Below, in pieces: positions 909 through 4,124 of a stretch of DNA of 24,645 nt. Made by a program: the position numbers and the translations under genes. The notes below the pieces were generated by a model. The model had not been told where the DNA came from and made no database searches. It was given only the letters and a program-made list of their open reading frames with translations. Positions within the stretch are counted from its first letter, which is position 1; each line of letters starts with the position of its first letter. Source of the stretch: a virus; the IMG/VR virus record IMGVR_UViG_3300033147_000109, positions 1-24,645 of that record; one strand, 5' to 3'.

Positions 909-1433
909 TCATTTAGAACTATATATTTCTAAGGTATCTTCTAACTCTCCTGCATAATCTTCTGCTTTTGTTATAGCTTCAATTACCGGTTCCAAAATAC
1001 CTTCTTCTACCAGCTTATATAAATTAATAAATATAACAGTCATATCAATTGTGGGTTTTCCATCCGCATTTTTAAAGGTTGTATTCTTTAATATAGCTTC
1101 ATATGACTTTACGTCAACTGGTAGAAAATTAGAGAATGCTTTTATAGTCAAACCAACCTGTTTAAATATCTCAATAACAAATAGCGCAGATGCACAGTAT
1201 GTGCCGGTTGGTGATGAAAGAGTGAATACTGGTCCTTCTTTAACTGCTTCGGCAATGAGAGTGACGCTTTTAAGAGTAATGTCATGACTCATAAACATTC
1301 CTGTAACTTCTCTCATAGATAAGTAAGATTTTATATCAAAGTAACTTGGGATTGCCACAAATTCAATATGAACCGGATGGTTATTGTGCCCCCTTCTGCT
1401 TTCATCCCCGTAATATTCATGTTGTCGGACCAT
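909..1433 (-). CDS. Uncharacterised protein, last gene of reverse cassette
   Basis: A 174-aa protein I do not recognise. The start ATG at 1433 has a strong ribosome site (AAGGAGA, 6 bases before ATG), and that site overlaps the TAA stop of the upstream gene, so translation is probably coupled. The sequence looks like a soluble mixed alpha/beta protein. It has a polar, His-rich N-terminus (HEYYGDESRRGHNNHPVH), a central part with a single Cys in TGTYCASALFVIEIFKQVG, and an acidic C-terminal helix (KAEDYAGELEDTLEIYSSK). There is no signal peptide and no clear catalytic motif. It is the promoter-distal gene of the four-gene cassette that also encodes a radical SAM enzyme, and it ends at the bidirectional hairpin. 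It is a real gene by ribosome site and packing; its function is unknown. Confidence 0.75.
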   Translation of the reverse strand: MVRQHEYYGDESRRGHNNHPVHIEFVAIPSYFDIKSYLSMREVTGMFMSHDITLKSVTLIAEAVKEGPVFTLSSPTGTYCASALFVIEIFKQVGLTIKAFSNFLPVDVKSYEAILKNTTFKNADGKPTIDMTVIFINLYKLVEEGILEPVIEAITKAEDYAGELEDTLEIYSSK

Positions 1434-1442
1434 ATCTTCTCC

Positions 1443-1964
1443 TTAATGTTTGCTAATTTTTATATGAGTAACTCTCCGAAAAGTTCCTCCATGTTCCATT
1501 TCGCTCATGAACTGGCCGTCTTCATCCCCATAATGAAACATGTACATATACATACCATCGTTCTGTTCAATAAATTCATTTGCTTTCTTCAAACATGCTT
1601 TCATTGTAGCAGCTTCATATTCATTATAAAATGCTTGCTGCCATGCTCGATTATCATATAATTCTCGAATTTCGATTCCTTCTCGTTTACAGAAGCCATC
1701 TTGATACTTACTATAATCCAATCCTACTAAATCATCAGCAAACCCATGAGTTAATTCTTCTGCTATCTTATCAGCAATTCTGGACTTTGTTTTATCCAAC
1801 TTTACTGGTCTCTGTCCCAAAGCATCTTTTAATACTTGTTGTGCTTTAGTTTCTGTCCCGGGTATGAGATATTGTACATCTGAGAATTGAGTAATCTTTT
1901 TATCAAATACAACAATGAAAGAGGAAGAACTTGAGTTTGTTACAAAATCAGTTTTTATTTTCAT
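1443..1964 (-). CDS. Protein with N-terminal TDFVTNSSSSSF motif
   Basis: A 173-aa protein starting MKIKTDFVTNSSSSSFIV. I recall this N-terminal string (K-I-x-T-D-F-V-T-N-S-S-S-S-S-F/Y) from many otherwise dissimilar uncharacterised proteins of bacteria and phages, which suggests a conserved N-terminal tag; its role is unknown to me. The rest is hydrophilic, with a helical middle (IADKIAEELTHGFADDLVG), an aromatic segment (YMYMFHYGDEDGQFM, about residues 138-152) and a basic His-containing tail. The start is one base after the TAG of the radical SAM gene (TAGGATG), so it should be co-translated with it. No good Shine-Dalgarno is visible beyond that coupling (GGGGTTGTAGG lies just before). Its neighbour makes modification of the Ser-rich motif an attractive but untested idea. 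Confidence 0.82.
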   Translation of the reverse strand: MKIKTDFVTNSSSSSFIVVFDKKITQFSDVQYLIPGTETKAQQVLKDALGQRPVKLDKTKSRIADKIAEELTHGFADDLVGLDYSKYQDGFCKREGIEIRELYDNRAWQQAFYNEYEAATMKACLKKANEFIEQNDGMYMYMFHYGDEDGQFMSEMEHGGTFRRVTHIKISKH

Positions 1965-1965
1965 C

Positions 1966-3024
1966 CTACAACCCCACTGGACAAGAGCATGGATTTTTCT
2001 TTAGTCTGGAACGGAATTGTTTAAACTTCATAGATCTATTCCATATATAATCAATGTCTCGCTTCTTTGTTATTTGAACTCCCCACTCCGGATGATCTGC
2101 AAAACTACATGGGATTAGCTGCATTGATGGACTAATATAAACAGACATCCTTGAAGATTCACATGTATCAATTGCCATCTTTTGTAACTCAGATGGTTCT
2201 GAGTATTTTAATACATGATTGATCAAACAACTATCCATTCCAATTTTAAATTTAGCTTTCGGTTGAAAAGCAAGATCAGCAAATGATTGTATTTGCATCT
2301 TGCTGGGAATTAATTCCCTTTTATCTCTTCCTTGACCTTGAGGTTTAAATAGAAGGAAAACAACGGCATTTAATTTGTCAATATCAATTTGTGATATTTT
2401 TCCTTCACCAACTTTAATTTTATTCCAAGGATTGTAACCATGTAATATTTTCATTGATCTATCAAAGTTAGGGCGTGAGAATATAAGATGAATATTTGTT
2501 TTGATTTTTGCATCCATCAATTTTGAAATAGCTTCATATGTATCTGGAGTACGATAATCACTTACTGCTACGGCACCACACATCTTTGATATTTCAATTT
2601 GTTCGTCTGTCAATTGACATCCGCTAGTTGTATAATTTGGGATGACTCCATTGTTTCTAGCGTATTCTACAATCTCTTTAAATTGAGGGTGTAGATTTGG
2701 GTCTCCTCTACCTCCCAATGCTACTTGATTTACATGATGCTTTACCTGATCTATAATACTCTTGAAGTTTTCAAGAGTCATATGAGGTTCCTCAACTCTT
2801 CCCTGATAACAAAAATAACAAGAGTTTAAACAACTCCCCATAATACCAACGTCAATTAATAGTGGTAATTCTGTTTTAAAGGGATCTTTTCCATTTTTAC
2901 CTTTGACAACTTCTAGTCCTGTTTTTGTATTGAAATGGACTTCGTATTCAATATTCTCAAAGTGTTTGTCAAAACTCCCTTTAATAAAAATAGTACCTTC
3001 CGAAATAATCATTTTTTGAAACAT
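1966..3024 (-). CDS. Radical SAM enzyme with SPASM-like C-terminal cysteines
   Basis: A 352-aa radical SAM protein. The signature C65-x3-C69-x2-C72 (CLNSCYFC) binds the catalytic 4Fe-4S cluster, and GGRGDP at about 104-109 sits at the SAM-binding GGE-like motif. The C-terminal part has five more cysteines (about 266, 288, 306, 346, 348), ending in PCSCPVG, which resembles the auxiliary-cluster SPASM or twitch domain of peptide- and protein-modifying radical SAM enzymes. The frame is open to an ATG at 3078, but that overlaps the upstream gene by 44 bases and lacks a ribosome site. The ATG at 3024 has GAAAGGAAAAGT before it and sits 10 bases after the upstream stop, so I chose it. The substrate is unknown. 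It lies between two small proteins that both begin with a Ser-run followed by FI. The superfamily is certain; the subfamily is inferred. Confidence 0.93.
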   Translation of the reverse strand: MFQKMIISEGTIFIKGSFDKHFENIEYEVHFNTKTGLEVVKGKNGKDPFKTELPLLIDVGIMGSCLNSCYFCYQGRVEEPHMTLENFKSIIDQVKHHVNQVALGGRGDPNLHPQFKEIVEYARNNGVIPNYTTSGCQLTDEQIEISKMCGAVAVSDYRTPDTYEAISKLMDAKIKTNIHLIFSRPNFDRSMKILHGYNPWNKIKVGEGKISQIDIDKLNAVVFLLFKPQGQGRDKRELIPSKMQIQSFADLAFQPKAKFKIGMDSCLINHVLKYSEPSELQKMAIDTCESSRMSVYISPSMQLIPCSFADHPEWGVQITKKRDIDYIWNRSMKFKQFRSRLKKNPCSCPVGL

Positions 3025-3034
3025 ACTTTTCCTT

Positions 3035-3469
3035 TCATAGTTTTTTGAATAAAGGATCGTCATCTTCAGATTCATCATCCAGTGCTTTCAATCCATCATC
3101 AAAATCTTCTAATGTAGTAGATTTTTCTTCAGATTCTTTTTTCATCCTTTCACCAAATTCCTTATCGGTTTCAAGTGTTGGATCTACATCAGGAGCTACA
3201 ACCACTTCCTGACTCTCCGGGTCATTAAATTCTTTAACTATTTCTTCCTTCGCTTTAACCAACGCACCCTTCGCCTTCTCTATTGCTTCTTTAAATTCAT
3301 CTTTGACATCTGAAAATGTGCGGTCGACATCTTCGCTGACTATCGGATTTTCGTCAACTTTTACCTCAACATCTTTCTTTTCCTCATCGTCATCAAAAAA
3401 TATATTATACATGACTACAAGAAAAATAATTGTGGGTAAACTTATGAAACTACTACTACTCTTTGACAT
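3035..3469 (-). CDS. Acidic N-terminally membrane-anchored protein
   Basis: A 144-aa protein with a probable transmembrane anchor near the N-terminus (ISLPTIIFLVVMYNIFF, residues 9-25) followed by a highly charged, mostly acidic and probably disordered or helical tail (DDDEEKKDVEVKVDE, then repeated E/K/D-rich stretches to DPLFKKL). With only eight short residues before the hydrophobic stretch (MSKSSSSF), the tail orientation cannot be fixed from sequence. The start at 3469 has AAAGGAGACAAAT before ATG, a strong ribosome site. It is the first gene of the reverse cassette, and the next gene (radical SAM) starts 10 bases after its stop. The short N-terminus SSSSFI also occurs in the Ser-motif protein at 1443-1964, encoded by different codons. 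I do not recognise the family. Confidence 0.8.
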   Translation of the reverse strand: MSKSSSSFISLPTIIFLVVMYNIFFDDDEEKKDVEVKVDENPIVSEDVDRTFSDVKDEFKEAIEKAKGALVKAKEEIVKEFNDPESQEVVVAPDVDPTLETDKEFGERMKKESEEKSTTLEDFDDGLKALDDESEDDDPLFKKL

Positions 3470-3587: not shown

Positions 3588-4124
3588 ATGGATCTACAAA
3601 TCTACTTAGATATGGTTCAGGGCGATGGTGGTGCAACTACTTCGTCAGGAAACGCATTTGGTATGGATTCATTTCCAGAAGTCCCAAGGAAAAAAAAGAA
3701 AAGAAGTATAATACGAACAGTATATCCAGAAATGCTATTACTCTTTCATGAGAAAAGAGCAATGATAGATTTGGACCAAACTATCCATAAATATTCAAAA
3801 GGATATGAAGATGGCACAATCTATGATGAACCATTTAAAGGTGCTCGTAACGCAATCAATTGGTTGAAAGACCAAGGATATGAAATTGTTATTTTTTCAA
3901 CCAGAGCATCTCCGGAAAATGCTTCAGAAATGGGTGGCGACCAGAAGAAAGAAATTGGAAAAATAGAAGCATGGTTAAAACACCATGACATATACTTTGA
4001 TAGAATTACAGCGGATAAAATTGCCGCAGATTTTTACATTGATGATAAAGCCATTCCAATTCATAATGGAAACTGGGACGCTGTATTAAAAGTTGTTAAA
4101 AAAAGAATGAAGTATGATTCTTAG
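3588..4124 (+). CDS. HAD-superfamily phosphatase-like protein with N-terminal extension
   Basis: A 178-aa protein with the HAD motifs in order: motif I D61-L-D63-Q-T65, motif II Ser/Thr at 104-105 (IFSTRAS), a Lys near 144 (TADKIAADF) and motif IV acidic pair D152-D153 (YIDDKAI). These fit a small phosphohydrolase using Asp61 as nucleophile; the substrate is unknown. The first 56 residues are not part of the HAD core: a short helix (MDLQIYLDMVQ), a Gly/Ser/Thr-rich linker and a basic KKKKR patch at 35-39. The ATG at 3588 has only a weak A-rich upstream region (TGGAAAAAAA). Met59 at 3762 would give an almost bare HAD core but has no convincing ribosome site. The stop lies inside the ribosome site of the tail tube gene, linking the two. 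Confidence 0.8.
   Translation: MDLQIYLDMVQGDGGATTSSGNAFGMDSFPEVPRKKKKRSIIRTVYPEMLLLFHEKRAMIDLDQTIHKYSKGYEDGTIYDEPFKGARNAINWLKDQGYEIVIFSTRASPENASEMGGDQKKEIGKIEAWLKHHDIYFDRITADKIAADFYIDDKAIPIHNGNWDAVLKVVKKRMKYDS

Follow-up and report, generated by a model that had tools for sequence, protein, structure and literature searches.

In a viral genome fragment (the window, a 24,645-base IMG/VR virus record), a radical SAM gene is flanked by two genes whose products share the hexapeptide SSSSFI near their N-termini, which raises the question of whether the enzyme acts on a serine-rich tag and, if so, on which proteins. The three reading frames named in the original prediction were recovered at the same positions, all on the minus strand, and the minus-strand cassette runs in the order small membrane protein, radical SAM enzyme, tag protein and orphan. 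The membrane-anchored protein is acidic, comprises 144 amino acids (3035..3469) and begins MSKSSSSFISL. The enzyme (1966..3078, 370 amino acids) has a reduced SPASM/twitch tail and belongs to PHROG 7293 (1.7e-25), and the tag-bearing protein (1443..1964, 173 amino acids; phrog_7397, 2e-14) has the N-terminus MKIKTDFVTNSSSSSFIV, residues 1–17 of which form the tag MKIKTDFVTNSSSSSFI (1914..1964). PHROG 7293 and PHROG 7397 are both without an assigned function, and the PHROGs entries consulted neither link the two families nor mention the tag. The downstream orphan gene (909..1433) is likewise functionally unassigned, and similar genes are also found 3′ of the enzyme in loci without a tag gene. 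Elsewhere, the window encodes a tail sheath (PF17482, PHROG 23), a HAD-type phosphatase-like protein and virion structural proteins, with the cassette lying between these genes. The phosphatase-like gene (3588–4124; PHROG 1238, with a weak match to NCBIfam EcbF-BcbF) stands opposite the cassette and recurs in 29 loci of the same phage group.

The enzyme itself was recognized by the Pfam Radical_SAM model PF04055 (E 1.2e-8, 35.8 bits against a cut-off of 29.5), and its SPASM match was weak (17.5 bits, under the 21.5 cut-off). No NCBIfam model scored above its own cut-off for the window enzyme, and TIGR04085 matched 40 of 58 family members at E 1e-3. Its start is more likely at 3024 (352 amino acids) than at 3078, because an AGGA box lies a few bases before that ATG and because residues 1–18 of the longer reading are predicted with a pLDDT below 50. 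The canonical CX3CX2C cluster motif is read as CLNSCYFC (2809..2832, residues 83–90 of the 370-residue frame), and the 58 aligned members share C83, C90, C284, C306, C324 and C366 together with QxALGG and DSC motifs. Cluster-site spacing varies within this one family, which is unusual: among 110 unique full-length homologs, CX7CX6C occurs in 74, CX3CX2C in 28 and CXCX3CX3C in 8, the enzyme of L182 has CX3CX2C, and those of a T4-like and a Vibrio phage (L003 and L002) read CX7CX2C by eye. The tree separates a jumbo-phage type (support 100/100), a bacterial and phage-array type (98/94) and a STAND-associated type (99/96, five rows); the T4-like type lies far from these. One phage homolog (L031:3795-6131) is split by an apparent intein just before the invariant ALGG motif.

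The predicted structure of the window enzyme (pLDDT 89.6, pTM 0.87) adopts the radical SAM barrel fold. Its closest solved folds are SuiB (Z 24.9 over 303 residues), SkfB (24.2), PqqE (20.3) and anSME (19.7), with ChlB and the thioether-forming maturase 5why also among the nearest. As regards a possible RiPP recognition element, the enzyme has N-terminal strands at residues 20–60, and the SuiB and SkfB alignments begin at model residues 29–35. SuiB and SkfB also rank first in sequence-profile comparisons. The radical SAM-SPASM maturases SuiB, SkfB and PqqE, which act on ribosomal peptides encoded nearby, are thus the best structural neighbours, at 14–16% identity to the window enzyme; their known substrates are short precursors, whereas here one tag is carried by many folded proteins. 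Viperin-like folds are also found among the structural neighbours, but identity as a viperin is not supported, as NF038283 reached only 22.6 of the 180 bits of its cut-off and PADLOC pVip matched over the core only (7.9e-9).

The original idea was that both proteins flanking the enzyme might share the serine-rich stretch as a tag. Its codons are as first described (AGT four times in the membrane protein and AGT/TCT/TCC/TCT in the tag protein), and the membrane protein is conserved 5′ of the enzyme in the phage group of the window (19 family members including its own). However, SSSSFI is not kept among the 18 other homologs of this protein. Only L188 comes near (MSKKSSSFIF), L180 and L191 read NKSSFIF, and the others start MSKSSKGGLG, MARRSGRASF, MTKSSGSIIG and similar. 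Since these 18 homologs are without it, the shared hexapeptide looks like a chance resemblance, and by this comparison the membrane protein appears to stand outside the tag system. That both flanking proteins, MSKSSSSFISL included, are substrates through SSSSFI is accordingly barely credible: the two hexapeptides do adjoin the enzyme in the one genome of the window, but the serine run is unconserved in the upstream family, which largely refutes the idea, and we rejected it.

The longer tag of the downstream protein behaves differently from a chance string. We searched at the DNA level for TDFVTN followed by five serine-like codons and F, and obtained 60 stretches in a viral collection and 111 in a collection of bacterial and archaeal genomes, 171 in total, whereas the reversed control pattern gave no matches in any pattern search of genomes. 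The tag begins at residue 5 in 239 of the 243 tag open reading frames and is mostly preceded by MK[IVFL][RK]. On these three counts (the 171 stretches, the fixed start and the empty control), the long tag is far beyond chance, and its expected recurrence at the N-terminus of many proteins is borne out in both collections.

These stretches were found by the tag only, and the enzyme was then sought among their open reading frames with the window enzyme as query, yielding homologs mostly at E 1e-40 to 1e-165. A homolog lay within 3 kb in 87 of the 111 bacterial and archaeal stretches and in 42 of the 60 viral ones, and tag and enzyme were on the same strand wherever both occurred in one stretch (129/129). 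The radical SAM enrichment anticipated beside tag-bearing proteins is therefore strongly upheld. The gap between the enzyme and the nearest tag gene was at most 100 nt in 78/87 bacterial and 24/42 viral loci. Because the stretches are short pieces, the whole genome or record was searched for the 42 stretches without an enzyme; the enzyme turned up in this way for 14 of the 24 genome stretches and 11 of the 18 viral stretches that had lacked it, bringing the totals to 101/111 genome and 53/60 viral stretches. It was not found in the genomes of ten of the 111 stretches, most of which are draft assemblies (L065, L070, L078, L112, L121, L130, L133, L138, L139 and L148), and the seven enzyme-negative viral records span 4–65 kb. 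These counts include loci that are not all independent, as some contigs contributed more than one stretch (L077 and L113 are an example), and L115 was counted with L067, with which it shares a contig. Apart from the tag reading frames themselves, the enzyme is the only family present in more than five loci that is common to phage and bacterial loci. Carriers of both tag and enzyme include Agrobacterium Ach5, Schaedlerella, Anaerotignum and Klebsiella phages of the Slopekvirus group.

Whole genomes gave a consistent picture. In 14 genomes chosen by the tag, none of the 28 tag sites is more than about 5 kb away from an enzyme gene, with one enzyme gene per genome (one genome has a second, split match) and with as many as ten tag sites in one genome and five in another. 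In a Gastranaerophilales genome (L117:319-5080), ten tag sites follow in a row behind one enzyme gene, and one of these tag proteins has a Cys-rich, zinc-finger-like start. As a background sample we took 200 genomes of Lachnospiraceae, the family of the tag carrier L103. The enzyme was rare there: it was present in six, the tag pattern in five and both in four (Fisher p 1.2e-6; 3.1e-5 once the centre genome, selected for its tag, is left out), and every tag site in the four doubly positive genomes was within about 2 kb of the enzyme. The matches in the two enzyme-only genomes are partial, and in the single genome with the tag pattern only, the matching string is DFVTNSTST, possibly a chance occurrence.

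The coupling of tag and enzyme, enormous as it is, is not strict. When the viral collection was scanned twice with the enzyme as the starting point, 78 additional loci were obtained, some on contigs already met through the tag. Among the 71 of these that are of the jumbo-phage type and have at least 1.5 kb downstream, a tag reading frame lies within 4 kb in 40, usually as the next gene, and no tag was found nearby in the other 31. A relaxed tag pattern gave no match in the 31 tag-less records searched, all of them fragments of 5–42 kb, and strict adjacency in all phages was rejected on these grounds. In the listed loci without a tag, other genes occupy that place, often similar to that at 909–1433 in the window. 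These loci are the main evidence against a strict pair, although all are fragments.

In T4-like phages the pair is conserved in altered form and at a distance. Relatives of the enzyme occur in 172 phage records and of the tag protein in 165, almost wholly in phages of Klebsiella, Enterobacter, Cronobacter, Citrobacter and Escherichia. In these phages the enzyme is divergent and the tag is a variant, GFVSNSSSSSF. The three Straboviridae examined were Nando, CPRSB and Maroon; their tag reads MKIRSGFVSNSSSSSF, and each has two tag genes, separated from the enzyme by about 20 kb in the two phages in which the place of the enzyme was looked at. The same co-occurrence of variant tag and divergent enzyme was seen in Vibrio phage D479, where one of five tag-pattern matches is less than 2 kb from the enzyme and four are about 8–10 kb away. 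For Citrobacter phages, the tag-protein search returned 4 records against 11 for the enzyme search, a shortfall attributable at least partly to search sensitivity, since Citrobacter phage Maroon does have tag genes.

The tag, MKIKTDFVTNSSSSSF, is thus an N-terminal element of dozens of otherwise unrelated phage and bacterial proteins. We collected 351 tag proteins (299 unique) with at least 9 of 12 matches, at least 60 amino acids and the tag at residue 5. With the first 17 residues removed, their bodies fell into 66 BLAST clusters, of which 35 were singletons; this number rests on BLAST at E 1e-3 and may shrink with profile methods. The consensus is [KR]xDFVTNSSSSSF, with the variants xGFVSNSSSSSF and xDFVSNSSSTSF. 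With one protein taken per cluster, positions 6–13 (DFVTNSSS) carry 4.1–4.3 bits and are nearly invariant, F7, N10, S11 and S12 being fully so, positions 14–16 carry 3.1–3.8 bits, and from position 18 onwards the value is 0.5–1.4 bits, falling to about 0.5–0.9 beyond that position; as the set was picked by the tag's own pattern, this apparent conservation is inflated, and conservation of this kind fits a modified site and a recognized site equally. The serines at 11–13 use TCN and AGY codons, both in large numbers, which indicates selection on the protein, since a copied DNA element would not show such a mix.

Behind the tag stand folded proteins. The AlphaFold2 model of the window tag protein (pLDDT 92.5) shows a folded alpha/beta body with its first beta-strand at residues 13–20, and residues 1–10 are predicted to be disordered (pLDDT 48); a Foldseek search of this body against the PDB returned no solved relative (best E 0.27). 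Tag proteins are mostly about 100 to more than 900 amino acids long, with 60 as the lower limit for inclusion, and thus do not resemble the short precursor substrates of RiPP enzymes, the modelled one being folded. Most of the 99 representatives searched in Pfam had no match, and the few that did had LRR, BRCT or beta-propeller domains (LRR_5 in three, BRCT in two, others single). In two proteins (L098:5832-7811 and L159:1822-3849), a hydrophobic segment that ends in ILASC comes after the tag and resembles a lipoprotein signal, so that the tag may precede an export signal there.

In some bacteria and archaea the pair is part of a larger operon. At 13 loci, tag protein and enzyme are encoded behind an Avs2-like STAND NTPase gene. 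Nine genome loci (L069, L079, L086, L089, L092, L097, L101, L157 and L167), from Bacteroidales, Paludibacteraceae, Sulfurimonas, Desulfobacterales, Methanosarcina and Clostridia, have two genes in common upstream of the tag gene, one for the large NTPase and one for a small protein that lacks the tag; no STAND gene was found in the L151 stretch. Among plasmids, 7 records were found to carry the enzyme, and the four examined (three Rhizobiaceae and one Rhodobacter) have the same gene order, a SMEK/REase-like STAND protein (two reading frames in L270) and the tag MK[IL]K[LM]DFVSNSSSTSF. The small untagged protein is related to the body of the tag protein (hhalign probability 93.8, E 1.8e-7). The tag proteins of these operons (L069:5257-5670 and relatives) mostly end in Trp, as NDGW, NDAW, NCYW or PSYW. 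Six genome-locus NTPases scanned in Pfam mostly have NACHT/STAND-like cores, and three of the six have N-terminal trypsin, DUF4062 or TIR domains, the TIR match being just under its cut-off. PADLOC Avs2 profiles matched the NTPase core in four genome-locus proteins (5e-17 to 6e-26) and, over eight NTPases from four genome contigs and the four plasmids, gave 4e-16 to 8e-27. These proteins resemble Avs2/AVAST in their NTPase core and swappable N-terminal effector domains, but they are about 820–930 amino acids long against profile lengths of about 1300–1580, with the Avs sensor part missing, and their scores reach at most 70.2 bits against the NCBIfam Avs2 cut-off of 1000, which places them outside Avs2; the operons here also encode a radical SAM enzyme and two small proteins in addition to the NTPase. 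Judged from gene order and profile matches, the STAND-tag-enzyme operon is a predicted defence operon in which the small proteins would take the place of the missing sensor part. We make no such claim for the Firmicutes cassettes, as neighbours of loci without a STAND gene gave only scattered PADLOC matches. Among 84 of 149 neighbouring reading frames scanned at such bacterial loci, the commonest domains were LRR_5 (8), BRCT (5) and HTH_3 (4).

From the genomic coupling, the conservation of the tag, its predicted disorder before an ordered body and the fold class of the enzyme, we infer that the enzyme is a radical SAM protein maturase with the N-terminal tag as its dedicated substrate, a reading to which, as a whole, we give a probability of about 0.72. 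The enzyme would bind the tag as a disordered tail that precedes folded proteins unrelated to one another, and the 5′-deoxyadenosyl radical would then alter the invariant core around N10-S11-S12-S13, possibly by crosslinking, oxidation or epimerization. One enzyme would serve one tag protein or several, whose genes adjoin its own or, as in T4-like phages, act in trans. Within the predicted Avs-like STAND NTPase defence operon of some bacteria, the subunit for sensing or regulation would be the tag protein, and phages would put the same chemistry on their own small proteins. This account is the strongest and simplest because the NSSS core is invariant although its tail is disordered, no other partner is widely shared, tag and enzyme have changed jointly in T4-like phages, and the enzyme has the fold of a maturase. 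The original idea of a peptide-maturase-like enzyme acting on the tag therefore stands in outline, and its extension to both flanking proteins falls.

Leader-guided RiPP enzymes work through a conserved leader and a modified remainder, and the clusters of one tag with many bodies would fit a tag that serves for recognition only, with the modified residue lying in the variable body. The bodies, however, are folded, range from 60 to more than 900 amino acids, form up to 66 clusters and share neither a motif nor an obvious acceptor residue, which makes such a leader unlikely. A little less likely still is an enzyme directed at a small molecule, an RNA or another protein, with the tag proteins docking as partners, inhibitors or scaffolds; viperin-like folds among the structural neighbours, phage enzymes with no tag gene in view and the tolerance of several Cys spacings would suit this reading, but the top fold matches of the window enzyme are peptide maturases, and a substrate is the better fit for a near-invariant NSSS that sits in a disordered tail, is carried by unrelated proteins and comes in arrays with as many as ten members in a genome.

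A described parallel is found in the radical SAM-SPASM peptide-processing modules of VMAP/FtsH ternary conflict systems (Kaur et al. 2020, PMC7159879). They likewise combine a radical SAM enzyme with a conserved peptide motif on variable precursors in an NTPase conflict context, but their motif is C-terminal (FxSxx) and accompanied by a metallopeptidase, whereas the tag here is N-terminal, of another sequence and also phage-borne. Among the papers listed by searches of the open-licence PMC literature for the tag string and the topic, none describes the tag, the sole string match being a food-peptide paper; the passages of PMC10853773 are unrelated to the tag-enzyme system.

If the enzyme does modify the tag, the protein-tagging system would be new. 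For the many 'hypothetical' phage and bacterial proteins that have only 16 residues in common, the tag offers a function-level lead and a likely enzyme. It also draws attention to a STAND-type defence operon that has not been described and to a module that phages and bacteria share. To protein engineers, a modified tag would be of interest as a substrate for radical chemistry that could be transferred among folded proteins. More tentatively, and with the odds against it, the tag may be portable, the enzyme converting the NSSS core of the 16-residue tail on any carrier protein, from phage arrays to the STAND sensor subunit, with the same modification in phages and in bacteria of many phyla; if so, it would be a chemically new handle shared by phages and a new class of STAND defence.
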